A stretch of 64,000 nt of DNA from Candidatus Latescibacterota bacterium (GCA_022822725.1 JAJEAN010000007.1:1685045-1749044); one strand, 5' to 3'; numbered from the stretch's first letter, positions 1 through 24,592 are shown. Program-made: numbers and translations. Notes: generated by a model from the letters alone, not told the origin.

Positions 1-1083
1 CTGTCGTTCTCGCACTAACTCTTCTACGGCCTGTCTTGCTTGTTCGGCTTTCTGTTCTGATTCCCGCTGAATCGCTATAACTATACTGAATATAACAATC
101 GCGAAAAACACGATCACCACAGTCCACTGGGATCGTGTCATTTTGGTTTGTAAGCTCTGAAGCTGGGGGTTCGGCCTTGATAGAGGTGTTATCTTCGCAG
201 GCTTGGGGTCTACCTTCGATATCGATGCTTTCCATGCAACTATTGTCTGAGGACGATCTACTTCCTTAACGTTTAAGGCCCAATCGATCGCCTTAAGGAA
301 CCTTCCACTTCCTTTATCAGCACATCGATTGGAAACTGAATCGAGTGGGTCGTCATTCAATCGGTCAATCGAATCGACCGGGGTTTTCCCTGTTAACGCT
401 TTGTAACAAACTGCACCTAATGCATAAACATCAGTCCACGGTCCCTGTTTCCCTCTGCTTGAATACTGCTCGATAGGTGCGTATCCTGGAGTGACAATTG
501 TCGTCACTGACCGACTTCTGGCACCAACTGCATGACGGGCAGCACCGAAGTCAATCAGCACCGGTGAAGCATCTTCGTCTCTGATGACGATATTACTGGG
601 TTTTATATCTCGGTGCAGGAATTCAGCACGATGGACCGTTTCCAAACCTTCAAGCACGGGCAACAATATGCGTTTAAGTTCGTCTTCATCCAGCGTACTT
701 TTTCGCGAAAGATAGGCTGCGAACGTCTCACCCTCGGCATATTCCATGACAATATACGCGGTACCGTTCGCCTCGAAAAATCGGTACACTTTTATTATGT
801 TTCGATGGTCGAACCGAGCCAAAGTACGTGCTTCATCAAGAAACCTTTCCAGACCCCATTCGTAGTCTTCCCGATAAGTACTTGCCTGTGGGGCAACACT
901 CTGATGGTCTGTGCGAATAGCGATGTCTGTTGGCAGGTACTCTTTGATAGCGACTGGTTTCTCGAGGTTATGGTCGTAACCCAGATAGGTCACGCCAAAT
1001 CCTCCAAACCCCAATACGCGGACCAGTTCGTATTCTTGGAGTCTATAGCCCTGAGGAAGGGCATTGAGGGGATGCTCGTTCAA
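1..1083 (-). CDS. Ser/Thr protein kinase, membrane-anchored (3' end outside window)
   Basis: Hanks-type kinase reading off the left edge; about 361 codons are visible. From a TTG start the Gly-rich loop GFGGFG is at residues 25-30, the ATP lysine in VAIKEY at 47, the catalytic loop HRDIKPSN from 157, DFGAAR from 178, and the bacterial activation-segment signature GYAPIEQY follows. One TM helix (WTVVIVFFAIVIFSIVIAI, about 320-338) is followed by a charged, probably coiled-coil stretch. The TTG at 1083 is chosen because an in-frame TAG lies immediately upstream and AAAGGA sits about 8 nt before it. It is the last visible gene of the minus-strand signalling cluster, 94 bp after the PP2C gene, and probably phosphorylates the cluster's FHA partners. 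The family call is firm; the substrates are inference. Confidence 0.93.
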   Translation of the reverse strand, partial: MNEHPLNALPQGYRLQEYELVRVLGFGGFGVTYLGYDHNLEKPVAIKEYLPTDIAIRTDHQSVAPQASTYREDYEWGLERFLDEARTLARFDHRNIIKVYRFFEANGTAYIVMEYAEGETFAAYLSRKSTLDEDELKRILLPVLEGLETVHRAEFLHRDIKPSNIVIRDEDASPVLIDFGAARHAVGARSRSVTTIVTPGYAPIEQYSSRGKQGPWTDVYALGAVCYKALTGKTPVDSIDRLNDDPLDSVSNRCADKGSGRFLKAIDWALNVKEVDRPQTIVAWKASISKVDPKPAKITPLSRPNPQLQSLQTKMTRSQWTVVIVFFAIVIFSIVIAIQRESEQKAEQARQAVEELVRERQ

Positions 1084-1177
1084 CTAGATATCCTTTGAAT
1101 TACTCGCTATTTCGCATGACTCTGATATGGAGCACAGAACGACACACTCACGATATCTGTGTCAGGGATGGATTGGC

Positions 1178-2227
1178 CTACTCTCCTCGTGACCCATCCA
1201 GAGTATCGCCTGATTCGATCGACGGTGATGGATTCTCCAGAGTTTCAGTTTCATTCTCGGATACTGCTTTCTCCTGTTCCGTATCAGTAGAATCGGATAC
1301 CGATCCTCCCACCTGCAGGTAACCTCGTACGGTTTGCCAGTCTATACCTGACCGGTTAACTAGCCAATATCCAGCTAAAGCGAGAGCAACTATGGCACCA
1401 CTCATCGTCAGCCACTTCACCTTTCCGATTCTAGTTGAAATCTTTGGAGACCCCGATGTACCGGTATCTAGAGTAAAGAGCAACACAGTAGTATTGTCTT
1501 GTCTCGGGTTTCTGGCATCCTCGACAGCCTTGATTAAGGTGTCAGCAACATCAGCTCGAGGATTACCTTTATTTCGTTCAAGCGTCTCGGCAATCACTTC
1601 TTCATCCAGTGTAAAAAGGCCATCACTCCCCAACATCACACAATCGCTTTTCTGTAAAGCAACCGGTTGAGATGAGACATCCACCATGGGTATTTCGTCA
1701 CCAACTATAGCTGATCGCAATGCGTGACGTTTTGGATCTGTTGAAGCTTCCTGTGCAGTCATACGACCTTCGTCAACCAGGATAGAAAGTGCCGGGGCCA
1801 TGGAATGATCCGCATTTAGGCGTATAAGTTCACCATTTCGAAACAACCACAGCGGAGAATCGCCTACGCTGATCCAGTCCATTCCCTTCTGGGAAACAAC
1901 AGCAGCTACAACTGTGGATCCCATACCCTCTAGTGCGGGATCTTCTTCGATAGATTTGGCTATAGCTTCATTGGCGGCATATAGACAGGACCTTAAACGA
2001 TCGGGTATAGGCCCTGTTGTACTGTGATACGTTTGGGCGAATGTCCTGACTACGGTTGAGCTGGCAGTATCACCACCGATATGCCCACCCATACCATCCG
2101 CAAGAAGCAGTACAACGCTACTATCAGTACCTTTACCTGACGGTTCGATCAGACCGAAATCGTCCTCTTGAGCTTCTCGACTGCCAAGAATCTGCCGAGC
2201 AGCGAATCGCCCATCGAGACCATTCAT
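1178..2227 (-). CDS. PP2C-family Ser/Thr phosphatase with C-terminal TM
   Basis: PPM/PP2C metal-dependent phosphatase, 349 aa. Motifs in order: EDDFG near 21-25 (metal Asp), LLADGMGGHIGG at about 41-52, GSTVVAAV, VGDSPLWLF, SDGLF, and RQDNTTVLLF, which holds the C-terminal metal Asp. All acidic metal ligands appear present, so it should be active. The catalytic domain covers about 1-255; a single TM helix (about 273-291) and a short acidic Ser/Glu tail follow, so the enzyme would be tethered with the catalytic domain in the cytoplasm. It lies directly upstream of the kinase gene and is the likely eraser of the kinase's phospho-marks. This kinase/PP2C/FHA set recalls known TerYP-type and T6SS threonine-phosphorylation pathways, but no Ter or T6SS gene is visible. 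Confidence 0.93.
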   Translation of the reverse strand: MNGLDGRFAARQILGSREAQEDDFGLIEPSGKGTDSSVVLLLADGMGGHIGGDTASSTVVRTFAQTYHSTTGPIPDRLRSCLYAANEAIAKSIEEDPALEGMGSTVVAAVVSQKGMDWISVGDSPLWLFRNGELIRLNADHSMAPALSILVDEGRMTAQEASTDPKRHALRSAIVGDEIPMVDVSSQPVALQKSDCVMLGSDGLFTLDEEVIAETLERNKGNPRADVADTLIKAVEDARNPRQDNTTVLLFTLDTGTSGSPKISTRIGKVKWLTMSGAIVALALAGYWLVNRSGIDWQTVRGYLQVGGSVSDSTDTEQEKAVSENETETLENPSPSIESGDTLDGSRGE

Positions 2228-2375
2228 AAATTACCATTCACGTATGAGAGGCTAGCTTGTTTCTGGTTAATTTGCTAAACGGCATGGTGCTAGTCGGAAA
2301 AGGAAGGGCTAGATGTCCGTAACTCGGACTTGATCGCAGCTTGGTCTGTGCGAGTTGGAACTGTGATCTACAGCC

Positions 2376-3011
2376 TTAATCCAGATCCTGCCAGTCAAAT
2401 TCCTCGCCACAAAGAGGAACAAACCGGAGCACCGTATCTCCGATTGTAATGTGGGTCAAAGCCGCTAGTTCGGTCGGGGTGAGAACGGGTTTGTCATCTA
2501 CATAGGTCAAGTTTGTACCGCCCCCATGCTGAACATAGTACACCCGGCCACGAGGATCGTAGGTAACCGTACTTTGCCCACTTCGAGAAATCCGGTTATC
2601 TCCAAAATCGACTTTTACTCGATCGGTTTCCCCTCTGCCTATGGAATTTGTACCATATCCCAACGGCAGTGCTCTTCCTTTGCCAGGTCCCGATACGATT
2701 ACCAACCATCCCACAACCGGGTCGTCCATTGCATCCACGGTCCCGGCCTGATCCGGCGACTGTTCCTTGCTCCGTCGACGGTGACGGCCTCCAAGAACAC
2801 GTGTCTTTTCATCGTCATCACTTCCAGACGATGAAGGGGTGCCGGTCATCAACCGTGTTGGCGCATCCAGGCGATCAGCATCATCTTGCTGACCGGTTTG
2901 TTTAGGAGTTTCCGGTAATGGGTCGGAGTTGTGCTTCGTAGTCTTCGTGGAAGCATCTTTTTCAGTTTTTTTTTCGATTATCTTTCCATCGGGGCCACGG
3001 TAAACAGGCAT
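2376..3011 (-). CDS. FHA-domain protein (intact copy of a duplicated pair)
   Basis: 211 aa. The N-terminal hundred residues are charged and disordered-looking and contain several Thr/Ser that could be phosphorylated (for example DAPTRLMTG and EKTRVLGG). An FHA fold follows at about 105-200, with GRGETDRVKVDFGDNRISR as the phosphopeptide-binding edge. The usual His after Ser-Arg is replaced (ISRSGQ), so binding may be weakened or atypical. No TM segment. Its start sits next to a remnant of a TolQ-like gene, and its closest relative is the broken FHA copy at 3218-3894. The pair arose by tandem duplication of an FHA plus TolQ-tail block. The role as a phospho-reader for the neighbouring kinase is inferred. 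Confidence 0.85.
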   Translation of the reverse strand: MPVYRGPDGKIIEKKTEKDASTKTTKHNSDPLPETPKQTGQQDDADRLDAPTRLMTGTPSSSGSDDDEKTRVLGGRHRRRSKEQSPDQAGTVDAMDDPVVGWLVIVSGPGKGRALPLGYGTNSIGRGETDRVKVDFGDNRISRSGQSTVTYDPRGRVYYVQHGGGTNLTYVDDKPVLTPTELAALTHITIGDTVLRFVPLCGEEFDWQDLD

Positions 3012-3023
3012 ATTAACTGCCTC

Positions 3024-3155
3024 CTATTTTTCATACAGGCGATTAATCAGATTGTCCAAACAATACTGGCCCGCGCGATTTAAAGCCATCTCCTCCCGTC
3101 CCTGTACAAAATGGAGGGCGAATACTAAAAGAGCGGACTGCATTAGAGCCAAGAG
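3024..3155 (-). pseudogene. C-terminal remnant of a second MotA/TolQ-like gene
   Basis: The minus strand reads LLALMQSALLVFALHFVQG then REEMALNRAGQYCLDN and LINRLYEK with an intact TAG. This matches almost residue for residue the last 43 residues of the intact TolQ-like protein encoded at 3906-4685. Nothing of the protein N-terminal to this can be read, so the copy is a tail only. Nucleotide similarity to the 3' end of the intact gene is obvious by eye over about 135 bases. It shows that the FHA and TolQ genes were duplicated together and that one TolQ copy was then mostly deleted. Confidence 0.85.
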
Positions 3156-3217
3156 CACAGAGTGCCCTTAACATGATAAAGTCAGTTACACAAAATCCGT
3201 GACTGACCCACACTACG

Positions 3218-3894
3218 TCATCTCATTTCGACTTTCAGATTCCCTCTGTTACTCCATTCCAGTACCTCGCCTGTACGAAGATCGATTTCTATCGTGCTCG
3301 ATCCGTACCGCCAAACCTCGTGGCCCAAAGCTGAGTAGCTAGCTAGAAATTGCATCCGGCGTGCCTTGTAGTCGTAGTACGTCATCCTTAATCAAGTTAG
3401 TACCGCCGCCATGTTGAACATAAAACGTGCGACCTCGTGGATCATAAGTGACAGTACTGTGCCCACCTCGCAAGATCTGATTGTCTCCGAAATCAATCCG
3501 AACCCGGTCTGTTTCGCCTCTACCAATTGAATTCGTCCCGTAACCCAGCGTCAATGCTCGGTCTTTCCCCGGTCCTGATACAACCACGAGCCACCCCACC
3601 ACGGGATCATCCATTGCATTCGCGACCTCGGTTCGGTCCTGAGTCCGATCTATATTTCTTCGACGCCGCCGTCCTCCGAGAATTCGTGTTTTTCTTCATC
3701 CTCCCTATTAGAAGGAGCGGAAGAATCTATCGTTAATCGAGTCGGCGCCTCCAGACGATCAGCGTCACTTTCCTGATCTGAATTTGATGGCACTTCGGGC
3801 AACGCTTCAGACTGACGCTTCGTAGACTCTGTCGGGGAGTCTTTCTGGGATTTTCTTCTATGATCTTACCGTCAGGTCCGCGATAAACAGGCAC
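3218..3894 (-). pseudogene. Degraded FHA-domain gene with chimeric C-terminus
   Basis: Frame-corrected translation starts at a GTG (VPVYRGPDGKII) matching the intact FHA paralogue. It passes through DADRLEAPTRLT, TRILGGRRRR, then MDDPVVGWLVVVSGPGK and GRGETDRVRIDFGD. At least three frame breaks are needed: in a T-run near 3855, in a T-run near 3690, and a 4-bp duplication (AGCT AGCT) near 3336-3345. After HGGGTNLI the FHA end is replaced by VLRLQGTPDAIS, WRYGSSTIEID and EWSNRGNLKV, a pattern resembling BamE/SmpA-like repeats in secreted proteins. Two breaks are in homopolymers and could be sequencing errors. The 4-bp duplication and the foreign tail argue for real decay. Confidence 0.75.
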
Positions 3895-3905
3895 ATTACC
3901 GTCTC

Positions 3906-4685
3906 CTATTTTTCATATAGGCGGTTAATCAGGTTATCCAGGCAGTATTGGCCCGCCCTATTTAACGCCATCTCTTCTCGCCCCTGCACAATGTGTAGTA
4001 CGAACACAAGTATAGCAGATTGAACTAGCGCAAGTAGGGTAGTATAAAATGCAACCCCTAGACGCCCCGCTATTGATGCTAAAAGCCTCGGATCCTGGGG
4101 ATTCTCTATACTCGCAGCATAATCCAATGATATGGCGATACCAACGATGGTTCCGATAAAGCCAATGGTCGGAATCAGCCATACAAGGTACCGAATCATC
4201 GTGTATTTAAGATCGAGTTCGTGTTGGATCAGTTCGAGGGATGAATTCAATATTGAATTGGTCTGACTGACAGATTTGCTTCCCTGAAACTGTAAGATAC
4301 AGCGTCCAATCAGTCGTTGAACAAAAAAGTCACGCCCCCCTTCGCTCTGTTGCGTTTTTCGATATAGAGGGCCCAGATCCTGTACGCGCAACATTACAGT
4401 ATCGTCTTCGGGCAGCAAATGTTTGGTAGTTTGTACTGACTCAAGTTTGGATTGGTTGTATCTGGTCCAGAGTTCTCCGCACCCCACAGAAAACAGTAGC
4501 CACATGAAGTTTTGAATGGTGACGGGATAGGGAAAGGTAGTAGTATGTCGGTCGAGTAAAAATGCCCCCAGTTCTGAATCAGGAGAACCAAGAACCAGAC
4601 TGAGCAGCGTGACAATTAACATACCGGCCAACAAGCTGACACCCAGTACGATCAGCCTGGTCCTGGTATAAGTGTCCTGATTCAT
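3906..4685 (-). CDS. MotA/TolQ/ExbB-family proton-channel-like protein
   Basis: 259 aa with four predicted TM helices: about 11-33, 52-75, 164-187 and 205-230. The third and fourth carry the family hallmarks: IPTIGFIGTIVGIAISL (the PxxGxxGTxxG-type motif) and GVAFYTTLLALVQSA with the helix-4 threonines. A roughly 90-residue cytoplasmic loop lies between TM2 and TM3, as in MotA/TolQ. Such proteins form pentamers around a dimeric TM partner and conduct ions. The obvious partner here is the single-TM VWA protein two genes upstream in the operon. There is no flagellar, Tol-Pal or TonB context. The family call is good; the ion-driven stator role is inferred. Confidence 0.85.
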   Translation of the reverse strand: MNQDTYTRTRLIVLGVSLLAGMLIVTLLSLVLGSPDSELGAFLLDRHTTTFPYPVTIQNFMWLLFSVGCGELWTRYNQSKLESVQTTKHLLPEDDTVMLRVQDLGPLYRKTQQSEGGRDFFVQRLIGRCILQFQGSKSVSQTNSILNSSLELIQHELDLKYTMIRYLVWLIPTIGFIGTIVGIAISLDYAASIENPQDPRLLASIAGRLGVAFYTTLLALVQSAILVFVLHIVQGREEMALNRAGQYCLDNLINRLYEK

Positions 4686-4773
4686 GATCGGTCTTTCTGT
4701 CTGTATCTACTTCGTATCCACTACGGTCCGTGCCAATGGTCTCCGCCAATTTGGATCCTGTTGAAAATAAACA

Positions 4774-5169
4774 CTAGCTATCTCTAATCACCTCACCCGT
4801 TTCCGGGTTTCGACGTACGGGACCCAAGGGAAGTTTGTTCTCATTAGGGCTGCTACGTTTTGCACCATCTGTCCACTTCTCAGTAACTTGCTTTATACCC
4901 TTCAGGATCTTTGCAACGGTGGTCTGATGCCGACCCAATAGTATAGAATCGGACGAATACACAATGTCTTGCGTGATACGCTGCCAGTTACCGCTGCGAG
5001 CGACATATGTTCCGCCGCTACTTGCCCGATCGGTTAGGAACAGATCGCCACCTTTTGTCACGACGAGTTCTGCGTGGATGCGGGATACGCTAGAGTCACC
5101 TATACGTAGGTGCACATCCGACCCACGTCCGATCAAGTAAACTGAAAACCTTTTGGATTTCGATTTCAT
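4774..5169 (-). CDS. Compact FHA-domain protein
   Basis: About 131 aa from the ATG at 5169; an alternative ATG at 5208 would overlap the VWA gene by 35 bp. A near-minimal canonical FHA domain occupies most of it: YLIGRGSDVHLRIGD, SSVSRIHAEL (the Arg, Ser and His used for phospho-Thr recognition are intact), LTDRASSGGTYV. A basic, Pro-rich tail follows, ending in NPETGEVIRDS. The preferred start begins only 5 nt after the VWA stop, which fits translational coupling. Placed between the VWA and TolQ-like genes, it is the best candidate to bridge phosphorylation to that membrane pair. Confidence 0.88.
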   Translation of the reverse strand: MKSKSKRFSVYLIGRGSDVHLRIGDSSVSRIHAELVVTKGGDLFLTDRASSGGTYVARSGNWQRITQDIVYSSDSILLGRHQTTVAKILKGIKQVTEKWTDGAKRSSPNENKLPLGPVRRNPETGEVIRDS

Positions 5170-5173
5170 ATTC

Positions 5174-6010
5174 TCAACCTGGTTTGGCTCCCACGAGTTC
5201 TCCATCATTCAGTGTCGTCAGCTCAACAAGGAAATCGATAAAATCCCGCTGAGTGACATAATCACCCACCGCCACGGCATGTATTGGGATCCTATTTACG
5301 TTTGACCGAGTTACTTCCCTTACGACACTTCGCCACGGTTCTGAAGGAGCGCCGTCACTGAGTAGAATGATCTCTTCGGGCTTCAGGGCGATGGCCGCCA
5401 GTAGCGCTTCGCGCGTAGGTGTACCACCGTCCACTTGGTTCATCCAGAGACGTATCGTGTTGTATACCTGGTCTCTTGAGCTTCCGACTATCCTGGAATA
5501 ACGCATATTCCCAGGCCAATAGAGTAACTTAGCGGATCCATACGGAGCATGGAATCCGATCATCGCAAGGTCGAGATCCGTACCTAGGGAACCGACCATG
5601 TTTTGAATAGATAGAGTAATAAACTGCCGGTAATCGTTCTCGCCGGGTCTAAATATGCTTCCGGACAAATCCACGACAAAAACGAATCTACTGGCTGTAG
5701 TTTTGATTCCCAGTAACACAGTGGTTTTATCAATCTCGTCTTGTAAAGACCTGATACGTTCTTCGAGTACGGCATCTTTGGAAGCTGTAGGGTCCTGCTT
5801 GAGGTTGGCATTCTCTTTCAATAGTTCCTCGTTCTCCTGTTTGAGCCTTTCGTTCTCAAGAGTTATGATTTCAGTTTCTCGAGCATCGCCCTGATTGGGA
5901 AAAAAAGGAACGAGCACCAGGGTAATCAGTATGAATACACCCATTGCCGAAGCAAATAGATCCAGGGCTGACATACTGAATATGTTGATTTCCTGACCGC
6001 GTCTTTTCAT
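5174..6010 (-). CDS. TM-coiled-coil-VWA domain protein, putative stator partner
   Basis: 278 aa. A single N-terminal TM (about 15-37) contains an Asp at residue 17 in SALDLFASAMGVFILIT. Its spacing from the downstream Phe recalls the proton-carrying Asp of MotB, ExbD and ZorB. A Glu/Lys/Asn-rich coiled coil (about 45-95) follows, then a VWA domain (about 107-270) with a complete MIDAS: DLSGS, the GGTPT threonine and LLSDGAP. MotB and ZorB carry a peptidoglycan-binding OmpA-like domain at this place, so VWA would be an unusual substitution. The gene is followed by the FHA and MotA/TolQ genes in the same operon. VWA and TM are clear; stator pairing is inferred. Confidence 0.9.
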   Translation of the reverse strand: MKRRGQEINIFSMSALDLFASAMGVFILITLVLVPFFPNQGDARETEIITLENERLKQENEELLKENANLKQDPTASKDAVLEERIRSLQDEIDKTTVLLGIKTTASRFVFVVDLSGSIFRPGENDYRQFITLSIQNMVGSLGTDLDLAMIGFHAPYGSAKLLYWPGNMRYSRIVGSSRDQVYNTIRLWMNQVDGGTPTREALLAAIALKPEEIILLSDGAPSEPWRSVVREVTRSNVNRIPIHAVAVGDYVTQRDFIDFLVELTTLNDGELVGAKPG

Positions 6011-6027
6011 AAGGTCTATGTCGATAA

Positions 6028-6096
6028 TTAACTGGGTTTCGACAGTATGTACTCAGGTACCACGAAAGCAAGAAGCGCCCACATGAACGCCACCAA
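6028..6096 (-). CDS. Possible 22-residue transmembrane peptide
   Basis: A tiny frame lies in the 97-bp gap between the protease-FHA gene and the VWA gene. From a TTG at 6096 it reads M/L-VAFMWALLAFVVPEYIL then SKPS and TAA. A GAGGA-like stretch at the end of the upstream gene lies about 13 nt before it. It is strongly hydrophobic and lies 11 nt past the upstream stop, so a coupled leader or small membrane subunit is possible. A frame this short could also be chance. No homology is recognised. Confidence 0.25.
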   Translation of the reverse strand: MVAFMWALLAFVVPEYILSKPS

Positions 6097-6107
6097 CTTA
6101 AAAGTTC

Positions 6108-7439
6108 CTAATCCTCTTTCGATATGTGTAATTCTAGTTTGCCAAACCGCATCAGGGAACCGTAAGGGAGCGGAATCGGTTTGAATGGAGTAAGCCTGGT
6201 ATTCTGAACGAAAGTACCATTCAATGAGTTTAAATCTTCGATACATAATTGACCTTTGCGGCTGGATATCCTGGCGTGTCGACGCGATACACTTTGATCT
6301 GATATGGTTTCGTCTACCAGTTCAGGTATCCGACCAAAGGAGATTCCAAGTGTTTGGTCAGCAAAACGGGTTCTTGGGATTACGATCCGGATCCGGTTTC
6401 CGTCAGCGTTGAAACCCGCAAGTACCAGACCCGAGTCAGGCAGTTGAGTTTGGGAAGACACGGCCTCTGAGAGGTTTTTTGCACCCGCGTTATTCGAAAC
6501 ACTATCTCGTTGTGATTCGCTTTCTGTCGTGGAAGCAGGTTTTGCTTTGAGTTTCTTCCTCGCAAGAATAAAAACAGCTAAACAAAGTCCACCTAGAACC
6601 AATCCCCATACCAATAAATAGCCATACTTTCCTTCTGCTTGTGTCTGCGCACGTTGGGTCTGTGTACTACTCAATCCACTCCCTGGATTAGCCACGCTCG
6701 CAATCTCAGGAGAGCACGGCTCAGTAAGAAACTCGTAAGGGATGGAGACCTCTTCTAAGAATCTCGACAATTCATCCACGTGCGAAGACCAATAGATTCC
6801 CGCGGTATGTGGGATTCTCTCGAAACCTGCGTTTGGGCTGTCGACCAAGACCAGTGATGCCTGGGTATTGACACCAACGATCTGACCACAGTCATCAAGT
6901 AATGGACCTCCGCTATTACCCGGATTCATCGGTGCGTTGTGCTGAACTATTGTAAGTTGCTCAGTAAACTGTCGACCGTCCCAAGTTCCCCTGAATGTAC
7001 GCCCGATCACACCGTCCTGAACCGTTGGATCGTCGGCAATATGCTCTCTGTCTGCTCCTCCGGGGTATCCAATTGCCCAGATTTTCTGACCCTTTTGTAG
7101 CTCTACGAGAGACAGCGTCAAAGGTGACAAGTTAAGCGTTGAAGCATGAAGTACTGCTAGATCGAGTTCTTCTGATATGGCGATTACCTTTCCTTCGTGG
7201 GGAACAGTTGAATTCATGGGTAGTATCACGATCCGACTGCTACTACTGACAACATGAGCGTTTGTAATAACGTGCCCACTCTTGTTAACCGAAAATCCAG
7301 TTCCGGTGTTAAGTCCAAGAGGAGTCTGCGTTACTATACGTACGATGCTTTTTTCTATTTCTTTGAAGTTTGGCGAAGCTACCGAGTCAAAATGATATAC
7401 GAGAACTATCAGACCCAGTGCGAACTGACGTAAGGACAT
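6108..7439 (-). CDS. Trypsin-like (HtrA-type) protease with TM and cytoplasmic FHA domain
   Basis: 443 aa. A signal peptide (about 1-22) is followed by a periplasmic trypsin-like domain with an intact triad: His62 in TNAHVV, Asp93 in LDLAVL and Ser176 in NPGNSGGPL. A TM helix (YLLVWGLVLGGLCLAVFIL, about 272-291) and a linker come next, then a C-terminal FHA domain (about 345-438) with DQSVSRRHARI and EDLNSLNGTFV intact. There is no PDZ domain, unlike DegP. The topology puts the protease outside and the phospho-reader inside, so the protein could couple cytoplasmic phosphorylation to periplasmic proteolysis in either direction. Its neighbour is a catalytically broken paralogue with the same layout. 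Confidence 0.92.
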   Translation of the reverse strand: MSLRQFALGLIVLVYHFDSVASPNFKEIEKSIVRIVTQTPLGLNTGTGFSVNKSGHVITNAHVVSSSSRIVILPMNSTVPHEGKVIAISEELDLAVLHASTLNLSPLTLSLVELQKGQKIWAIGYPGGADREHIADDPTVQDGVIGRTFRGTWDGRQFTEQLTIVQHNAPMNPGNSGGPLLDDCGQIVGVNTQASLVLVDSPNAGFERIPHTAGIYWSSHVDELSRFLEEVSIPYEFLTEPCSPEIASVANPGSGLSSTQTQRAQTQAEGKYGYLLVWGLVLGGLCLAVFILARKKLKAKPASTTESESQRDSVSNNAGAKNLSEAVSSQTQLPDSGLVLAGFNADGNRIRIVIPRTRFADQTLGISFGRIPELVDETISDQSVSRRHARISSRKGQLCIEDLNSLNGTFVQNTRLTPFKPIPLPYGSLMRFGKLELHISKED

Positions 7440-7523
7440 CGACTAGTCCACCCATGCGACAATTGTGGAAGAGATGGTTGATCTTGAATTACAGTTGTGT
7501 TTTTAAGGGGAACTGGGATTGCT

Positions 7524-9068
7524 CTATGACACCCATATTAGGCGTACCGTAAACGCTACGGGTCCAATTTCGAGTCTATCATCGTCATTTATTTCTAAAG
7601 GATTGCCCGGAGAGAGAGGTTGGTCATTTACTTTTGTCCCGTTCAACGTGTCCAGATCTTCCACATATAGGCGTCCTGAGTCCTGAGTTAGTCTGACATG
7701 CTCTCGGGAAACTTCCTGGTGGTCAATTAGGTACTCCGCATCGGCCGGACTCCTGCCCAAAACCACCCCTGAAGCATAACCAAGTGCCAACTCCGAGATG
7801 TTGACGACATGAGTCCGCCCTGAGTTATCTGTTCCATCCAGTACGCACTTAAACGGAGCAGGTACTGGTGCCTTGTCGGCGGCTTGTCTTGCAGCTTCTG
7901 CTTCCCGTTCAGCCGAGTGTGCACGAGTGGAAGCTTTGGAAACTTGGGCCTTTTTCTTTCTCGCATATAAAAACCACCCAATAAGCAACACAACCAACAT
8001 TCCAATTGCTGCATATTTGATTTCTTGAATCCGCGATGAAAACTGTGTTGATTCGGCCTTCAAACTGTCTTGCAGAGCGGTCTGCACCGAGTCAGCGAAT
8101 GACTCCATCCGGACCAGGCTGTCCTTCGTCGCGTCTTGAAGTGAATCTGTCTGGGCTTGATGGAGAGAATCAGAGATCGCCTTTTCCTGCTCAGATACTA
8201 ACAATGCAGCTCTTGCAGCTTCTGTTTCTTCTTGACTAGATCTTGCGGCTTCTTCAGCAGTCAACCTCGCCGTTCTTTCACGGTTCAGGCTATCCTGGGT
8301 CGCCTGCTCTAACGCTCTTAGTCGTTCTTCGACATTCGCTCTTTCTAGTTCGGCTCGTTCAATAGCGCTTGGACATTCCTCATCAACTATTGTGAAGGAG
8401 ATATTCAAAGCCGTGAGGGTAGTTACTATCTCCTTATTCATTAACGCGGAAACAGATCCTGTTGGATTGACCAAGTTTTGAAACGGCCAGGTTTCATTGG
8501 TTGGATCTGGAACATTCATTCCAATGACATCGCCACATTCATTAAACAGAGGCATACCGAAACCGGCTGAGGGAATGAGGGCGTTATGTTGGAATAAACT
8601 TAGAGTAGTTTCGGCTTCTTGTATGACAGGAATACTTTGGTAAGCTCCAATGGAGCCTACAATAACCTGAACATCAGTATCGCCAAAAACCTGCAGTGTC
8701 TCGACACCACGGCCGACTTCGATACCCTGTTCAGAGAGGTATAAAGGTGGTAGTCCCAGGCCTGTCACTCGGAGAAGGGCCAGGTTCCGATCACTTCGCA
8801 GTTCATCATGCAGCCGTGCTACGTATTCGGCACCGGATTTTAACGATAGTACAGTTATACTCTCAGCATCAACGAGAAGATGAGCATTCGTCACGATATA
8901 ACCGTCGCTAACCACAAAACCACTGCCCTCAGCTACTATTCTGTTATCCACATAGGACCGAACTTTGACTAAGCTTGAAGTGACGGAATCAACGTCAATT
9001 CTGCCCGAGACAGGATATGTAAAAAAAGTTGTGACGATGATCGAAAGAACCAAACTGCGAAACAACAT
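7524..9068 (-). CDS. Trypsin-fold pseudoprotease with coiled coil, TM and FHA domain
   Basis: 514 aa, the first gene of the signalling operon. A signal peptide (about 1-22) is followed by a trypsin fold that keeps His62 (TNAHLL). The serine is lost: against HNAPMNPGNSGGPLLDDCG of its neighbour it reads HNALIPSAGFGMPLFNECG, so Ser becomes Phe170. The Asp position is Asn95, though Asp93 lies two residues away. A long coiled coil (about 225-350) with repeated DSL heptads, a TM (YAAIGMLVVLLIGWFLYA) and a canonical FHA domain (EVSREHVRL, EDLDTLNGTKV) complete it. It is probably a binding-only sensor or regulator paired with the active protease gene downstream. Confidence 0.88.
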   Translation of the reverse strand: MLFRSLVLSIIVTTFFTYPVSGRIDVDSVTSSLVKVRSYVDNRIVAEGSGFVVSDGYIVTNAHLLVDAESITVLSLKSGAEYVARLHDELRSDRNLALLRVTGLGLPPLYLSEQGIEVGRGVETLQVFGDTDVQVIVGSIGAYQSIPVIQEAETTLSLFQHNALIPSAGFGMPLFNECGDVIGMNVPDPTNETWPFQNLVNPTGSVSALMNKEIVTTLTALNISFTIVDEECPSAIERAELERANVEERLRALEQATQDSLNRERTARLTAEEAARSSQEETEAARAALLVSEQEKAISDSLHQAQTDSLQDATKDSLVRMESFADSVQTALQDSLKAESTQFSSRIQEIKYAAIGMLVVLLIGWFLYARKKKAQVSKASTRAHSAEREAEAARQAADKAPVPAPFKCVLDGTDNSGRTHVVNISELALGYASGVVLGRSPADAEYLIDHQEVSREHVRLTQDSGRLYVEDLDTLNGTKVNDQPLSPGNPLEINDDDRLEIGPVAFTVRLIWVS

Positions 9069-9147: not shown

Positions 9148-9396
9148 TTAAGGGCTTGGGGGCCTGTCACGCAGAAATCGATGTATTCTTACCGCACCTA
9201 CAAAGAGACCGTACATGTAAACAGGGAAAGTTATCAGAATGACAATGAGTTCAATGACACCAGGCAGTTGATCTGAAAACCATTCCTCATATAAGCTAAA
9301 ATACGCGACAGTGACGTAGTAGTAAACAACGACACCGACTACCCACATCACCCATATAACTAGACCTTGCTCTATTATCCTTTGTATCTTGTTCAT
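9148..9396 (-). CDS. Small two-TM membrane protein, unknown function
   Basis: 82 aa. Two hydrophobic helices (about 11-33, rich in Val/Tyr/Trp, and 47-68) are separated by an acidic turn (YEEWFSDQLPG); the C-terminus is basic and Pro-ending (RDRPPSP). It is just upstream of and co-oriented with the FHA signalling operon, but a 79-bp gap holding a palindrome separates them, so it may be a separate unit. No family recognised. Confidence 0.55.
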   Translation of the reverse strand: MNKIQRIIEQGLVIWVMWVVGVVVYYYVTVAYFSLYEEWFSDQLPGVIELIVILITFPVYMYGLFVGAVRIHRFLRDRPPSP

Positions 9397-9945: not shown

Positions 9946-10019
9946 CGGAGGATATTGTTGCGCACTTAACGATTCCAGGTCACTTGATTAAACCCAGACT
10001 ACGACCGCCCCGGACCACG

Positions 10020-10223
10020 GCCATGGCCAACTTACTGTGAGATCTTTGGGCGTATGGCGAACCTGACAGGGCGTCAGCTCTGGCCATTCCGGTAGTCAAG
10101 TTACATCTGTACGGGAAACAGGAAGCCCGCGCAGGGAGGATGATGGGACATTTGACGGCAATGGTGGATACGCGGGAGCAAGCGGTGGAAAGGGTGGTGG
10201 AGGCGAGGCGGGGGTTGGGGTGA
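10020..10223 (+). pseudogene. purK: purK 3'-end remnant with in-frame stop
   Basis: The plus strand reads AMANLL-stop-DLW, then VVKLHLYGKQEARAGR and MMGHLTAMVDT ending at TGA 10221-10223. This is the recognisable C-terminus of N5-carboxyaminoimidazole ribonucleotide synthase (family pattern NLLGDLW ... KLHLYGK ... R-x-MGHLT). TGA at 10038-10040 replaces the conserved glycine codon GGA. Upstream residues (RPPRTT) still look weakly PurK-like and then fade. No ATP-grasp domain or purE is nearby. It is a decayed fragment marking an old rearrangement at the border of the low-GC block. Confidence 0.75.
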
Positions 10224-10248
10224 TGGTCGTTATTGGAGAGCGATTACG

Positions 10249-17948: not shown

Positions 17949-20900
17949 CTACTCCCCCGCCCCCTCGTACGCCAACTCGAACACCGTATTCTTCATCCAT
18001 CGGCTGAATTCAGGATTGTTGGCGTATAACTTATACAGTTGCATTTCGTCCTTCATCATCGAGGTGATGACGCGCGACAGCGCTTTGTCGTGCTCGATGC
18101 GCGCGTTTTGCCGGTCCGAGTTCTGGCGGGCATTTTTGAACGCAGTGTCCATGGCAACCCGCGCCGGAATCGTGTCGTAGACCTGCTTCATAATGCGGTC
18201 TGCGTCTTCCCACTTGATATTTCCGAAAAGATCGTTGAATTCCGCGATTATGTTCGACAGGCGATCCATCTCGGGGTCGGAGCTTGATCCACCACCTGTG
18301 GGCGGTACGGGTCCGATCTCGGCATCCTCATCGGGAAGGATGATCTTCTGCATAGCTCTCTTCTCGACCCTGTAGCTATCCAGATCGATGGCCTCGAGGA
18401 TACCCTTGGAAAGGTCATCGTCGGCGGGGGCCGGCAGCTTCGAAACCAGGAAGTTCAGGAAAATGGACCGCTTTTCCCAATCGGCATTGGTATACGGAAG
18501 GATCGATGCCAGGAACGCGTAGGTCCGCAGGAAGCCCTTAGCTTTACCTTTGAAGTCGACCTGTCCGTCTTCATCGAGCTGTTCTTTGTACGCTGCCACG
18601 CAGGCATCGAGGATGGGGTGGAGCTGGTCGACGTCCGCGCCGTCCAGGTACTGGCGCACAAAGTCTTCAATCTGTTCCTCGGAATAGACCTGGGAGCTGT
18701 CGAGATCGGCCTGCAAGTCGTGGAGCTTGTTGGGATCGGTCTCCTCGGACAGGATCGTGGTGCGGTAGAAGTTGGAGAACGCGTCGCGGATGGTATCGGT
18801 ATCGTTCAGGAAATCCAGGACGAGGACATCGTGCTTGTCCGGATGTGCTCGATTCAGGCGCGATAGCGTCTGTACGGCCTTGATGCTCGACAGCGTCTTG
18901 TCGACGTACATCGTATGCAGCAGCGGTTCGTCGTAACCCGTCTGGAACTTGTCGGCGCAGACCAGGAAACGGTACGGATCCTCCTGGAACCGCTCTTCAA
19001 TCTTGACTGACGGAAAACCATTAAGCAAAGACTCGCTGACCTTCGACCCTCCGTAATCGTATTCGCCGGAGAAAGCGACAAGGGCCTGGTAAGGACTCTT
19101 TCGCTCTTTCAGGTAGTCTCGGATGGCATAAAAGTACTGGATTGCACGTTCGATGCCGTTGGTAACGACCATAGCGCGCGCCTTGCCGCGGATCCTGTGT
19201 TGCACCAGTACCTGGTCGTGGAAATGGTCCACCATGATCTCCGCCTTGAGCCGGATGGCATGGTCGCTTCCTTCCACGAAGCGCCGCAGTTTCTTCTGGG
19301 CCTTCTTCGTGTCAAATTTTGGGTCGTCCTCTATCGTCTTGGCAAGTTTGTAGTAGCTTTCCACCGGCGTGTAATGCTCAAGCACGTCCAGGATGAACCC
19401 TTCCTGGATCGCCTGCTTCATGGTGTAGCTATGGAAAGCCCGGTGCCTCACCGTGCCGTCGGCCTGCGATTCCGGATCGCCGAAGGTCTCCAGCGTCTTG
19501 TTCTTGGGCGTGGCGGTAAAAGCGAAGTAGCTGGCGTTGGACAGCAACTTGCGGTTCTCCATAAGGTCGTTGATCTTATCCTCGAAGGAATTTTCTACGA
19601 TCTCATTCACGGACTCAGAAAGTACCTTCGACATCGCCGCGCTTGTACGGCCCCCCTGACTGGAATGGGCCTCGTCGATGATGATGGCAAAACACCGGCT
19701 CTGCTGCGCTTTGTCTATCTCGTCCAGGATGAAGGGAAACTTCTGCACGGTGGAGATGATGATCTTCTTGCCGTCCTGGATGAACTTCTTCAGGTCGCCC
19801 GACTTGTTGGCATGCCCCACCGTCGCGCTTACCTGCTCGTACTGCCTGATTGTATCGTGGATCTGCCGATCGAGGATCCTTCGGTCCGTGACCACGACGA
19901 TCGAGTCGAAGACCGGCTTCCCATCTTTCGTAAGCCCGATCAACTGATGAGCCAACCAGGCGATGGAGTTGCTCTTTCCACTGCCGGCCGAATGCTGGAT
20001 CAGGTAGCGCTTGCCCACACCGGAGACGGTCGCGTCGGCCAGAAGCTTGCGAACTACGTCGAGCTGATGGTACCGCGGCCACGTCTGCGTCCTTCTCTTC
20101 TGGTTGGATTTCGCATCCTTGGTCACGACCACCTGAGCATAGTTCTCCAGGATGTTGGTCAGACTCTCTCTGGACAGCACTTCCCGCCAAAGGTAGTCGG
20201 TCTTGATCCCGTTTGGATTGGGCGGATTGCCGGCGCCGTCATTCCATCCGAGATTGAAAGGCAGGAACCATGACGCCTTCCCCTTGAGGTGAGTACAAAA
20301 ACGGACCTCGCTCTCGTCCACTGCAAAATGGGCAATGCACCGGCCGAGTTCGAACAGTTTCTCCTTGGGATTGCGATCCAGCTTGTACTGCTCAACGGCG
20401 TCGCTCACGGTTTGCTTGGTCAGGCTGTTCTTCAACTCGAACGTGAACACCGGGAGACCGTTGATGAACAGACCAATATCCAGGGCCCGTTGCGTCTCAT
20501 CCTTGCTGTAACGCAGCTGCCGGGTCACGGTGAACCGGTTCAGTTCGAATTGCGCCTTGGCCTGCTCGTTCCCGGGCGACGGGGTACCGTAAAACAGGTC
20601 CAGGTCGTGCGCTCCGTGCCTGATACCGTTACGAAGTACGTCGATAGTACCGCGCTTGCTGATTTCGTTCTGAAGCCGGGCGAGAAACTTCTGTCGTGTA
20701 GGGCAGTTCTCAGACAGTGCCAATGAGTCAGCCGCCGCGGGTTGCGTATCACCTAGGAATTCCGAGAGCTGAACCAAATCGACGCAGTACGTCCGGTCGT
20801 AGTCGTGGGGATTCCCACAACTCCAGCCCACACCGCCGTAGCCAGCTGCCGGCTCGGCCACGGTACCCGATGAAAGGGGATCGCACGGATGTCCTGTCAG

Positions 20901-20990
20901 GGTCTTGCAGATGAGGCGTTCGAGGCCCTTTTCAGAAGTGTCGGTGGTCATGCTGTCATTACCGAGAACCCTTGTCGGGAATCGCACCAT
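17949..20990 (-). CDS. hsdR: Type I restriction enzyme R subunit
   Basis: 1013 aa. The N-terminal nuclease (HsdR_N) shows ALDIGLFINGLPVFTFELKN with the D ... E-x-K catalytic pattern. The SF2 translocase motifs follow: HSAGSGKSNSIAW (Walker A), DEAHSSQGG (DEAH box), AFTATPKNKT, FQTGYDEPLLHTMYVDK, and QTLSRLNRAH (motif VI). A helical C-terminal domain would contact HsdM. The first Met (20990) and Met14 (20951, MTTDTSEKG) are both possible starts, neither with a strong ribosome site. It is the last gene of the RM locus and has its own AT-rich upstream region. It translocates and cleaves unmodified DNA with HsdM and HsdS. Confidence 0.95.
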   Translation of the reverse strand: MVRFPTRVLGNDSMTTDTSEKGLERLICKTLTGHPCDPLSSGTVAEPAAGYGGVGWSCGNPHDYDRTYCVDLVQLSEFLGDTQPAAADSLALSENCPTRQKFLARLQNEISKRGTIDVLRNGIRHGAHDLDLFYGTPSPGNEQAKAQFELNRFTVTRQLRYSKDETQRALDIGLFINGLPVFTFELKNSLTKQTVSDAVEQYKLDRNPKEKLFELGRCIAHFAVDESEVRFCTHLKGKASWFLPFNLGWNDGAGNPPNPNGIKTDYLWREVLSRESLTNILENYAQVVVTKDAKSNQKRRTQTWPRYHQLDVVRKLLADATVSGVGKRYLIQHSAGSGKSNSIAWLAHQLIGLTKDGKPVFDSIVVVTDRRILDRQIHDTIRQYEQVSATVGHANKSGDLKKFIQDGKKIIISTVQKFPFILDEIDKAQQSRCFAIIIDEAHSSQGGRTSAAMSKVLSESVNEIVENSFEDKINDLMENRKLLSNASYFAFTATPKNKTLETFGDPESQADGTVRHRAFHSYTMKQAIQEGFILDVLEHYTPVESYYKLAKTIEDDPKFDTKKAQKKLRRFVEGSDHAIRLKAEIMVDHFHDQVLVQHRIRGKARAMVVTNGIERAIQYFYAIRDYLKERKSPYQALVAFSGEYDYGGSKVSESLLNGFPSVKIEERFQEDPYRFLVCADKFQTGYDEPLLHTMYVDKTLSSIKAVQTLSRLNRAHPDKHDVLVLDFLNDTDTIRDAFSNFYRTTILSEETDPNKLHDLQADLDSSQVYSEEQIEDFVRQYLDGADVDQLHPILDACVAAYKEQLDEDGQVDFKGKAKGFLRTYAFLASILPYTNADWEKRSIFLNFLVSKLPAPADDDLSKGILEAIDLDSYRVEKRAMQKIILPDEDAEIGPVPPTGGGSSSDPEMDRLSNIIAEFNDLFGNIKWEDADRIMKQVYDTIPARVAMDTAFKNARQNSDRQNARIEHDKALSRVITSMMKDEMQLYKLYANNPEFSRWMKNTVFELAYEGAGE

Positions 20991-20994
20991 TATG

Positions 20995-21110
20995 CCGTAT
21001 TGTGGTTATAACCCAACGCTAATGGCACAAATTACCTGCACACAAATATATAATAGACATATACTTACAAAATCAATTATGTCTAAATTATGCCGAAATT
21101 ACGCTTAAAT
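20995..21110 (-). promoter_or_regulatory. AT-rich upstream region of hsdR, related to the one upstream of the AlbA_2 gene
   Basis: This gap of about 140 bp contains blocks (ATTGTGGT, GGCACAAAT, CACACAAATAT, GACATATACTTA, ATTATGCCG) that recur in the same order at 22890-22990. Conserved order and spacing suggest a duplicated promoter or operator, letting hsdR be controlled separately from the upstream genes. No regulator was identified. Confidence 0.4.
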
Positions 21111-21131
21111 TGTAAAAACCACTTTAAACTG

Positions 21132-22784
21132 TTATTTACTTTCAGGATTATCGCCAGAAGGCGGTATCTTCGGATACCAGCGAGCGGCTTTAGTATTCCC
21201 TACTTTGTGTATCTGTCCATTGATTCTCATCTCTTGAAGTAATTTCTGAACCTGGATATAGGAGAGCGCTGGCAGCACCTGAACAAGCTCCTTCAACGGA
21301 CTCCCATCTTTCCGGTTATATTGAATATGCTTAAGCAGCAACTCCTTGTTAGTCTCGCGGTCCAATCCACGCTTGCGTGTGTACACCCCTGCCTTACCGA
21401 TATACCGGTAGAACCGCCGGGACAATAGCAACCGTACACTCCGCCCGCGTCCCGTGCGTTCAATTATGCCCCGTTCCAGCAGAGGCTCGATTCTGGGTTT
21501 AAGGTCGTCGGGAATGGGTTGATCGCGGTGGACAAGATCGACCAACAATAGATCGTCAAGTCCAAACAAGGCGACCTGTTCCTGCCCGATCTCCTCCAGA
21601 AAACGCAAAAATTCCTGATCTTGAATATCGCCGTGCAGCGTGAGCCATACGCCGTTCGCATCCGTATGGGTAAAATCAGGCAACGGCTTACTCTGCTGAA
21701 TACACTCGCGAAATATGCGGTCAAACCCCTGTCCGGCTCGTTCGACCAGGCCGCATTTGCCAAGCACTTCGGCGATACGGCGATTGCGGGGGTTTTGTTG
21801 CCGGAGGACGTTCTCAGGGGTTATGCCGGGTGGAAAACCTCCAGGACTCACGATTTCTACGCGACGTGGATACTGCCGGACGAAAATAGAACCTCCATTG
21901 CGATAATCGCGGTGACTCACGGCGTTCAAAACGGCCTCGCGAACCATGCGCTCGTTGAACGTGGGCACGTCCCAGATAAAGAGCCCCTGCTGAAAGTGTT
22001 GCAGGTCGTTTCGTTGGTTGATGAGTCGCCAGATCTCGTCCAGAACAGAGAGGAATCCCAGCCTGAATTCATGTCGTTCCGCCGCCGGTCCGGGTTCTTC
22101 ATTTGATCGGTACTCGAATATGACTTCCGCCTGGGAAAGGTATTTGCCCAGAGCTTTTCGTGTGCCCAGCAGGATCAACGCCGCATACGTCACCTCGCCA
22201 TCGACAAGCAACTCCGCATCTGTCAGCAGTTGCTCATCGGGACGGGTCGAGATGCCTTGGTCCGGCGACTTTCGATGCCACAGCTTACGCAGAGCATTCA
22301 AAGCGGTCGGATCGAGATCTTCCAATCGGGCTTGTGTACAAATCTCCGCAGAAAAATCGAGGCTGGCCTCAGCGAATATGCGTTGGAGTTGATCCTGAGT
22401 CATAGGTACGAGGGCATCTCCACCACGCATCCAATAAGCACCTTTGTACTGTAGCGGTACTCCTAAAGGTCGAGGCGGGACCTGAAGCACAAGTATCCGC
22501 CTGCCCCGGTGTTGTACCTCCTCGGCATCTATACGTAGCCTCAGTCGCTCAAACAGGCTGGCCTTCGTCCTTTCGAGATCAGGAAAAGCACGGCTGCCAA
22601 CCACTTCGCGCGGTGGTTTGTCTGTCACACCCAGGATCATCCTTCCGCCACCTTCATTGGAAAGGGCAATGCAGTACTTTACCAACTCCTCAAAATCGAA
22701 CCTGTTTTTTGCCTCTTTGAACTCCAGATGCTCGTCTTCCCTGGCGTCCATCCAGGTCTGGAGTTCGGATAGGGGAATGGTCAT
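21132..22784 (-). CDS. AlbA_2/Schlafen-domain ATP-binding protein in the RM locus
   Basis: 550 aa. The N-terminal AlbA_2 domain (PF04326) shows EDEHLEFKEAKNRFDFEELVK-type opening residues, ALSNEGGGRMILGV, and YWMRGGDALVPM. The middle region has an ATPase-like segment of the COG2865 type: FNERMVREAVLNAVSHRDYRN, SIFVRQYPRRVEIVSPGGFP, GLVERAGQGFDRIF. A winged-helix-like C-terminus (LPALSYIQVQKLLQEMR) may bind DNA or RNA. Such proteins are frequent passengers of type I RM operons and may act as regulators or add-on effectors. It lies between hsdS and hsdR, with about 340 bp to hsdR-side and hsdS-side AT-rich gaps. Confidence 0.85.
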   Translation of the reverse strand: MTIPLSELQTWMDAREDEHLEFKEAKNRFDFEELVKYCIALSNEGGGRMILGVTDKPPREVVGSRAFPDLERTKASLFERLRLRIDAEEVQHRGRRILVLQVPPRPLGVPLQYKGAYWMRGGDALVPMTQDQLQRIFAEASLDFSAEICTQARLEDLDPTALNALRKLWHRKSPDQGISTRPDEQLLTDAELLVDGEVTYAALILLGTRKALGKYLSQAEVIFEYRSNEEPGPAAERHEFRLGFLSVLDEIWRLINQRNDLQHFQQGLFIWDVPTFNERMVREAVLNAVSHRDYRNGGSIFVRQYPRRVEIVSPGGFPPGITPENVLRQQNPRNRRIAEVLGKCGLVERAGQGFDRIFRECIQQSKPLPDFTHTDANGVWLTLHGDIQDQEFLRFLEEIGQEQVALFGLDDLLLVDLVHRDQPIPDDLKPRIEPLLERGIIERTGRGRSVRLLLSRRFYRYIGKAGVYTRKRGLDRETNKELLLKHIQYNRKDGSPLKELVQVLPALSYIQVQKLLQEMRINGQIHKVGNTKAARWYPKIPPSGDNPESK

Positions 22785-22815
22785 GGTGTTATATTTGTCT
22801 AATCATGTGAATTAT

Positions 22816-22834
22816 GCACCCTCAACGAGGGTGC
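22816..22834. other. Short hairpin GCACCCTC-AAC-GAGGGTGC
   Basis: A perfect 8-bp stem with a 3-nt loop lies just upstream of the AlbA_2 gene start (22784) in the minus-strand sense, with no T-tract. It could be an operator or a leader hairpin. Confidence 0.35.
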
Positions 22835-22887
22835 CGGAATATCCTGCCATCTTGTCATCCGTACCGGAAATGAACTCGTAAACTGCA

Positions 22888-22997
22888 TTATTATGCTGGA
22901 TTGTGGTGATGGTATAATTGGTATTGGTACAAATGCGTCACACATAAAGGTATGATAAACAGATACTTATAAACGGAAAGTCGTTCCCATTATGCGG
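22888..22997 (-). promoter_or_regulatory. AT-rich upstream region of the AlbA_2 gene, related to the hsdR upstream region
   Basis: Blocks ATTGTGGT, GGTACAAAT, CACACATAAAGG, AACAGATACTTA and ATTATGCGG parallel those upstream of hsdR. The 383-bp gap between hsdS and the AlbA_2 gene otherwise holds only a doubtful 39-codon frame and a small hairpin. Confidence 0.4.
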
Positions 22998-23021
22998 TTA
23001 ATTGTGCCTTTTACCCTTTTT

Positions 23022-23141
23022 TTAACGTAATTCCGAATGATCACCGACTTCTATCAAGATACCGTATACCTGTGTCTGAGCGTCGTAGACTTCCTCAACG
23101 GCTTCAGTCACTTCAAAGGTGTTTTCGCTCGGACCTTTCAT
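23022..23141 (-). CDS. Possible 39-residue acidic protein
   Basis: ATG at 23141 to TAA at 23022; it reads MKGPSENTFEVTEAVEE then VYDAQTQVYGILIEVGDHSE. It is acidic, with no Cys and no TM. It starts 27 bp after the hsdS stop in the same direction. No clear ribosome site. It could be a small anti-restriction or regulatory peptide, a remnant, or chance. Confidence 0.25.
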   Translation of the reverse strand: MKGPSENTFEVTEAVEEVYDAQTQVYGILIEVGDHSELR

Positions 23142-23167
23142 AGATTTCTAAATTAGTAAGCTTCGTA

Positions 23168-24592
23168 TCAGCTAGCAACATGACTGACGGCATAGTTGAT
23201 AGAACCTGACTCTGCAGGACCATCCATCGATTCTGTGTCATCAGGAAGATTGGTGGCTGCTTCACGTACGTCCAGCTTGCCGGTGACAACATCGGAGATC
23301 AGGCGAGTGCGGTACTCCTGAAAGAGTTCGATCTGGCGACGCGTGCGGGTAATGGCTGTCTCAATGTTAGTCGAGACCTCGTCGAGATAGTGGACGATGG
23401 CAGATTGTTCGGAGAGGGGTGGGAGAGGAAGCCATACCGATTTGATACCAGCATGAGAGAGCCCATATCTAGTTACGCCTTTCGCTTCGACATGGAACTG
23501 TTTTGCCAGCCCCTTACTCTGTAAAGCTCGTAGTAGATAAGCACCCGCAAGCCTGTCAGATTGGGGACGCAACAAGGCCAAGTGATAGCCTGAGACAAGA
23601 TCGCATGCAGGATCAGTTACCAGTGCAGGCACCCCTATGTCGTCCCAAGTCTCGGAGTCCTTGGTGATGAGGACATCATTTCTTTCAAGTCTGAATCGCT
23701 CGATTTCCTCATTGGTAGCGGTCGCATGCATAAAATCCATCTGTTTGTTGATGTAGTCATTGTTGTAAACATCAACATAATTACAGAGACGGACCGGATT
23801 CTCGCCATCCTTTATGTGTTTGTCAACGTTGCTTACTCGCATATCTACTACATTCCGCAGCCGCCGTACCTCCCAATGCTTCGGCACATCTCCCAGCCAC
23901 TCCGCTCCTGATGGTTGGTAGGCTGGATACGGCTTTCCGGATCGGACATCGAACTGCCCAGTGACAGCTTTCTGTGTGATGACCACTTTCTGTTCATCTA
24001 AAAGGGAAAGGAGTTTCTGCTTGCCTTGTGTGTAGTCTTGTATACGCTGTTGGGCATGTTCGAGGAATCTCACAATTTCGTTTTGTTCAGCAATTGGCAA
24101 AATCGGAATCGACTGATTAGCAAAAGTGCTATATCGAAAGTCAGTAGATCGCTCCCTTATACCTTTTGAGAGTGCCAAGATCCACTGGTTTCTGGCCATT
24201 TCTCGGATATAGAAGGCATAATAGTATGGATTGACCCCTGTCCGAGCAGGGGTACAGACAGAATAAACAGAGGTACCCATTCCATTCGAATCGGAAACGC
24301 CGACTGCACCGGCGAACGCATCCATTGAATGGATAACGAGGTCTCCACATCGTATACCCTGATACCTAAATCGACTTAGGGATTCCGTGAAACCACCTAA
24401 CCGACGATTGCTCCTAAGTGTCACGGTACCATCACGAAAGCACGTAACAACCTCATCGTCCTTTTCTGCAGGGCGTTCTATTTTGCAAAATAACCACTTT
24501 GCCCGGCAAGTACTCCAGTGCTTCGGCATGTTTTCCAACCACTCGACCTCAGAATCCTTCATTTCGGAAAATGGTTTGAGACCTTTCATCAT
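23168..24592 (-). CDS. hsdS: Type I restriction specificity subunit
   Basis: 474 aa with the classic two-half layout. TRD1 is about 15-150 (opening VEWLENMPKHWSTCRAK); a conserved helical spacer is about 160-215 (LPIAEQNEIVRFLEHAQQRI). TRD2 is about 222-370 (AEWLGDVPKHWEVRRLR), followed by a second helical region (LPPLSEQSAIVHYLDEV) and a tail. It determines the bipartite DNA target for HsdM/HsdR. The ATG overlaps the stop of the upstream DUF262 gene in an ATGA arrangement, so translation is coupled. The recognition sequence cannot be predicted from the TRDs by eye. Confidence 0.95.
   Translation of the reverse strand: MMKGLKPFSEMKDSEVEWLENMPKHWSTCRAKWLFCKIERPAEKDDEVVTCFRDGTVTLRSNRRLGGFTESLSRFRYQGIRCGDLVIHSMDAFAGAVGVSDSNGMGTSVYSVCTPARTGVNPYYYAFYIREMARNQWILALSKGIRERSTDFRYSTFANQSIPILPIAEQNEIVRFLEHAQQRIQDYTQGKQKLLSLLDEQKVVITQKAVTGQFDVRSGKPYPAYQPSGAEWLGDVPKHWEVRRLRNVVDMRVSNVDKHIKDGENPVRLCNYVDVYNNDYINKQMDFMHATATNEEIERFRLERNDVLITKDSETWDDIGVPALVTDPACDLVSGYHLALLRPQSDRLAGAYLLRALQSKGLAKQFHVEAKGVTRYGLSHAGIKSVWLPLPPLSEQSAIVHYLDEVSTNIETAITRTRRQIELFQEYRTRLISDVVTGKLDVREAATNLPDDTESMDGPAESGSINYAVSHVAS

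Follow-up and report, generated by a model that had tools for sequence, protein, structure and literature searches.

A rare, conserved gene set that may encode a phosphorylation-controlled, proton-driven envelope machine

A TolQ-like motor protein and a membrane-tethered VWA protein are encoded together with a Ser/Thr kinase, a PP2C phosphatase, FHA proteins and a pair of HtrA-like proteins, one active and one dead, in a real, rare and conserved operon found in several proteobacterial lineages. Whether these genes jointly specify a phosphorylation-controlled, proton-driven envelope machine is, in our estimate, evenly poised. More tentatively, they could represent an envelope machine of a new class: Thr phosphorylation would gate a VWA-headed rotary proton motor, and the machine would recruit a protease/pseudo-protease pair through FHA domains, so that one complex would couple phosphorylation to ion flow and to periplasmic proteolysis.

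Gene content of the locus

The window, a 64,000-nucleotide stretch of a Candidatus Latescibacterota genome (GCA_022822725.1, JAJEAN010000007.1:1685045-1749044), carries nine co-oriented genes or gene remnants at 1-9068, all on the minus strand: kinase, PP2C, FHA1, debris, TolQ, FHA2, TM-VWA and two trypsin-FHA genes. This is the complement listed in the original prediction, made from the sequence alone, and every member is present. The prediction also proposed extending the sequence left of base 1; doing so completes the kinase, which runs to -494 and is followed by an M48 peptidase gene at -2138..-687 and then by purK and purE. Counting the M48 peptidase as a core part would take the unit to about -2138; none was noticed at the other loci, however, and the peptidase was set aside. 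At the opposite end, upstream of the set and in the same direction, an ORF at 9148..9396 (minus strand) encodes a small membrane protein of 82 aa without a family match; it was not found elsewhere and its membership is unsure.

The motor core

The TolQ/MotA-like motor A subunit (3906..4685, minus strand; 259 aa) matches the Pfam family MotA_ExbB (2.2e-10) and the PADLOC profile ZorA2. Thr179 and Thr216 are invariant in the family alignment, and both fall within the region that aligns to solved TolQ. Its putative partner, the TPH-vWA protein (5174..6010, minus strand), begins with a short cytoplasmic stretch followed by the helix IFSMSALDLFASAMGVFILI, which carries an Asp at the position equivalent to that of MotB and TolR. 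This residue, Asp17, is invariant in 11 aligned TPH-vWA proteins. This transpore helix is MotB/ZorB-like, although the PADLOC ZorB1 profile matches residues 6-84 only weakly (E 0.0013), and a search with the helix sequence returned no matching PDB chain. Beyond it lie a coiled coil and a predicted periplasmic VWA domain with a MIDAS motif, matched by the Pfam family VWA_3; the AlphaFold2 model (pLDDT 80) comprises a helical stalk and a confident VWA domain, and its structural matches are VWA folds. No TolR/ExbD family occurs among the cluster proteins. Given the invariant helix Asp and both channel threonines, the reading that best fits TolQ and TPH-vWA, from sequence, is a VWA-headed 5:2 motor driven by protons. 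This is in line with the stator assignment originally proposed; a motor that combines TolQ with TM-VWA was, however, already on record (PMC12204202).

The kinase, phosphatase and FHA proteins

The Ser/Thr protein kinase (1..1083, on to -494, minus strand; 525 aa) is a full ORF with a TM helix and a C-terminal tail (Pkinase, 2.4e-42), and its VAIK, HRD and DFG motifs are intact (AIKE/HRDIKPSN/DFG). The adjacent PP2C Ser/Thr phosphatase (1178..2227, minus strand; 349 aa) has a C-terminal TM helix, SpoIIE/PP2C Pfam matches, a Stp1-like NCBIfam match and the motifs ADGMGG, SDGL and DNTT. FHA1 (2376..3011, minus strand), identified by an FHA Pfam match, bears an N-terminal Thr-rich tail (DEKTRVLGG) that is a candidate phospho-switch. 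A tail motif of the form acidic-x-x-Thr-x-(Val/Ile/Leu), located ahead of the FHA domain, recurs across loci and is present in most of the FHA1 homologues aligned; we read its Thr as a candidate target of the kinase. The small FHA2 protein (4774..5208, minus strand; FHA, 3.6e-12) is conserved beside TolQ, and its gene overlaps the TM-VWA gene.

Between FHA1 and TolQ lies a stretch of debris (3012..3905, minus strand) that tblastn resolves in three frames as a frameshifted second FHA1, a kinase C-terminus and a TolQ C-terminus, the last 85% identical to the intact TolQ. Together these pieces point to a former tandem TolQ-FHA1-kinase unit, and the simplest reading of the region is a duplication of that unit, later deleted in part. 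What had been called a broken FHA gene, the 91-aa ORF at 3339-3614, belongs to this debris of three genes.

An active and a dead HtrA-like protein

Both trypsin-FHA genes encode predicted membrane-anchored HtrA-like proteins. The first (6108..7439, minus strand; 443 aa) has signal/TM segments, a cytoplasmic FHA domain (1.3e-16) and a Trypsin_2 domain (2.1e-26) that keeps the catalytic His, Asp and Ser, as expected of an active protease. The second (7524..9068, minus strand; 514 aa; Trypsin_2 2.1e-14, FHA 3.5e-16) lacks the catalytic Asp and Ser, and we term it a pseudo-protease. It carries a long coiled coil, a TM segment and an FHA domain; its structural model shows an HtrA fold, then the coiled coil, then the FHA domain, and the closest structures are RsgI9, MarP (Rv3671c) and DegS. 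No PDZ domain was found in the HtrA-like proteins of the cluster.

The pairing of an active with a dead copy is found in all four loci where both are resolved (the window, L013, L073 and L086). Five of the six dead copies group in a single clade (97/99); the sixth is a long branch. The retention of such a pair yields clear, testable predictions. The original prediction had phospho-Thr marks linking ion flow, a VWA effector and periplasmic proteolysis; the gene set accords with this and phospho-control remains an inferred element, while one of the two supposed proteases is a pseudo-protease.

Conservation across bacterial lineages

To follow the set beyond the window, we searched for the TolQ family with a profile built from ten TolQ sequences. 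Scores were bimodal, members scoring 276-411 bits and other relatives at most ~100 bits, and the family was found in six of 369 Gammaproteobacteria and in eight of 385 Alphaproteobacteria, counting centres. Co-occurrence was counted in those TolQ-family loci, 12 in all, where TolQ is flanked by 5 kb or more on either side. A TM helix partner is present in all 12, a kinase in ten, an FHA protein in ten, PP2C in nine and a trypsin-FHA protein in six. Locus L073 (genome G101) holds the whole set in a single gene run (FHA, TolQ, FHA1, PP2C, two trypsin-FHA, TM-VWA, kinase), and nearly all of it is found in L011 (SAR86), L013 (Pseudomonadales), L076, L080 and L081. A possible objection to the original prediction was that these genes might rarely co-occur; across the well-flanked loci they do recur together, and their conserved order rules out chance co-location.

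The composition of the set varies. The VWA domain is swapped for another beta domain in L005, L013, L014 and L083, and two helix-VWA genes occur in L015, L016, L081 and L082, compared with one in the window. Taken with the six loci that have no proteases, these swaps suggest that the machine is modular. In the SAR86 genome, a lone helix-plus-beta-domain gene (L085 9441-10139) has no adjoining TolQ. Plasmid searches gave no match with the TM-VWA protein. With TolQ, the only good relative lay on a Rhizobium plasmid; two cyanobacterial MotA-like genes from the latter search were set aside for their unrelated neighborhoods.

Genomic setting of the window locus

The host genome comprises 3.8 Mb in nine contigs, with the window in contig C9. 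A block from about -2000 to 11000 has a GC content of 43-51%, flanked by sequence of mostly ~60-65% to the left and by genes of ~58-63% at 11-16 kb. In congeners, the APH gene (window position 10991) lies ~0.6-1.3 kb after purK wherever both are on the compared piece, and the gap between them holds different cargo in each species. In the window, this gap is occupied by the low-GC island, together with a second, decayed copy of the 3' end of purK (10006..10224, plus strand; 79% to the intact copy by blastn, with an in-frame TGA) that marks the right edge of the insertion. Neither an integrase nor a tRNA was seen at the purK-APH insertion hotspot. Farther right, window positions 17949-28400 hold genes identified by eye only as HsdR, HsdS and HsdM, with AlbA-like and DUF262-like proteins between them, in sequence of partly low GC.

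The TM-VWA protein was not found in any of the 11 congeners searched. In the TolQ tree, the window sequence is sister to those of three gammaproteobacterial MAGs (support 100/97), which are probably sponge-associated, going by isolate names only, and it sits within a larger clade in which every named member is a gammaproteobacterium. The gene set was thus apparently acquired horizontally by this genome; for comparison within its own phylum, 16 genomes were available. A decayed TolQ-family fragment (L100 4345-4599) is present in a genome from the same family as that of the window.

A proposed envelope machine and its alternatives

In the machine that we propose, five TolQ-like subunits would assemble as an inner-membrane pentamer, into which two TPH-vWA proteins would insert their Asp-bearing helices to give a 5:2 motor with its VWA heads in the periplasm. 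The membrane kinase would sense the state of the envelope and phosphorylate Thr sites, for which the FHA1 tail is the most likely location; PP2C would reset them. The two adaptors and the pair of membrane-anchored HtrA-like proteins could then read phospho-Thr through their FHA domains, which would switch the motor and recruit to it the active protease and its dead partner, a possible sensor or regulator. Once switched, the motor may move or pull a periplasmic or outer-membrane ligand gripped by the VWA head, where the active protease would clip or clear its substrate. The most likely physiological use is envelope maintenance or remodeling under stress. If correct, this would be the first known rotary proton motor switched by eukaryote-like kinase signaling across the inner membrane. 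Deletion tests are practical, as Rhizobium leguminosarum BT01 and Methylobacterium variabile DSM 16961 are named carriers with deposited genomes; the BT01 copy has no trypsin-FHA genes.

Defense, envelope control and secretion had all been entertained for the locus. A Zorya-like anti-phage role, in which the TolQ/TPH-vWA motor would sense phage entry at the envelope, the kinase relay the signal and the FHA-protease act as effector, is a credible though unlikely alternative. The motor pair resembles ZorA/ZorB, the set is inserted at a hotspot and absent from congeners, and it has spread horizontally. The Rhizobium locus, a plasmid copy, adjoins Gabija and Mokosh genes (L005 8-5883: MkoA fragment, MkoB, GajA, GajB), AbiEii lies on one gammaproteobacterial MAG contig, and type I R-M genes occur ~9-19 kb rightward in the window. 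However, the cluster has no Zorya-type nuclease or helicase partner, and a PADLOC and Pfam survey of 63 proteins that flank the set at 12 other loci gave only a few isolated PADLOC matches, most named proteins being housekeeping; flanking genes elsewhere include tRNA synthetases, SHMT, FtsK, chemotaxis genes and similar. These neighborhoods lead us to favor envelope maintenance and to place defense second. In most genomes, neither defense nor secretion islands are tied to the set; one locus beside Gabija/Mokosh and one near a T6SS nevertheless leave room for other roles.

That T6SS neighbor, a cluster ~7 kb away from the set in Methylobacterium variabile (L101 635-11540: VgrG, TagH, TssK, TssL, TssM, TagF), is what speaks for the set regulating or energizing a secretion system, by analogy with the PpkA-PppA-Fha threonine phosphorylation pathway. 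We consider this improbable: the window's genome has no TssM, the top Pfam families found at the other flanks include no T6SS model besides the Methylobacterium VgrG, and the set has a kinase, PP2C and FHA of its own. The related concern that the window holds a fragment of a T6SS or Ter locus continuing to the left is excluded by purK on that side and by the lack of TssM and TerD in the genome. There is a similarly slim chance that the VWA heads bind surface ligands in a gliding or adhesion motor, as proposed for VWA force transducers; the fold of VWA heads is an adhesive one, gliding has been suggested for a related family (PMC12204202) and one FHA match is GltG-like, but no gliding or polysaccharide export genes were noticed near the loci, and the proteases and dead proteases would go unexplained. 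It is very improbable that the genes are island-mates without a joint function, forming in the window a decaying cluster. The debris at 3012-3905 and the absence of proteases from half of the 12 loci would suit such an account, but similar operon order in distant lineages, intact active sites and overlapping genes argue against it.

Comparison with known systems

No account of the full set, of the kinase-PP2C-FHA layer or of the protease pair was found in the open-access literature. For the whole machine this agrees, within that literature, with the original claim that no described system has exactly this set; the claim does not extend to the motor core, described in 2025 in Mol Biol Evol (PMC12204202). 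As in the T6SS PpkA/PppA/Fha pathway, a kinase, a PP2C and FHA proteins would gate a membrane machine, although the window locus has no T6SS genes and its genome no TssM. Ter/TerY-P systems differ in that the window's genome has no TerD, and the VMAP vWA-MoxR ternary systems in their MoxR-type ATPase, as no ATPase family occurs among the cluster proteins. Zorya shares with the window a MotA/MotB-like pair, visible as weak ZorA/ZorB profile matches (PADLOC), but the window set lacks ZorC, ZorD and ZorE, its 259-aa TolQ has no long ZorA tail, and a VWA domain replaces the OmpA domain. The HtrA-like proteins resemble MarP and DegS/HtrA in being periplasmic HtrA-fold proteases anchored in the inner membrane; unlike these, they show no PDZ domain in our searches, possess a cytoplasmic FHA domain, and pair an active copy with a dead one.

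The closest relatives are the TPH-vWA/TolQ force transducers (PMC12204202), a TolQ plus helix-VWA family of unknown function with a proton-binding Asp and no nearby TolR/ExbD, whose VWA genes occur mostly in heterologous pairs, a tendency rather than a strict rule; the text of that paper contains no kinase, phosphatase or FHA-domain system. The window likewise encodes a VWA protein with a MotB/TolR-like helix and conserved Asp, with TolQ adjacent and no TolR/ExbD, but has a single VWA gene in place of the pair. Among related TolQ motors (L087, L088, L089, L092, L093, L095 and L096), most have two VWA-type genes; in those that we tested, PEGA and sulfatase-modifying-factor proteins occur in L087, L088 and L095, FHA proteins in L088, L089 and L095, and a YebC-like gene lies near L087 and L092. 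Relatives of the published type recovered here have SFLDI-type VWA pairs and form a separate TolQ clade. An FHA protein accompanies three of them and a kinase two, and phospho-control may thus be a widespread feature of such VWA-bearing motors. Were the proposed machine confirmed, these orphan TolQ/TPH-vWA motors would gain a control layer and candidate substrates.
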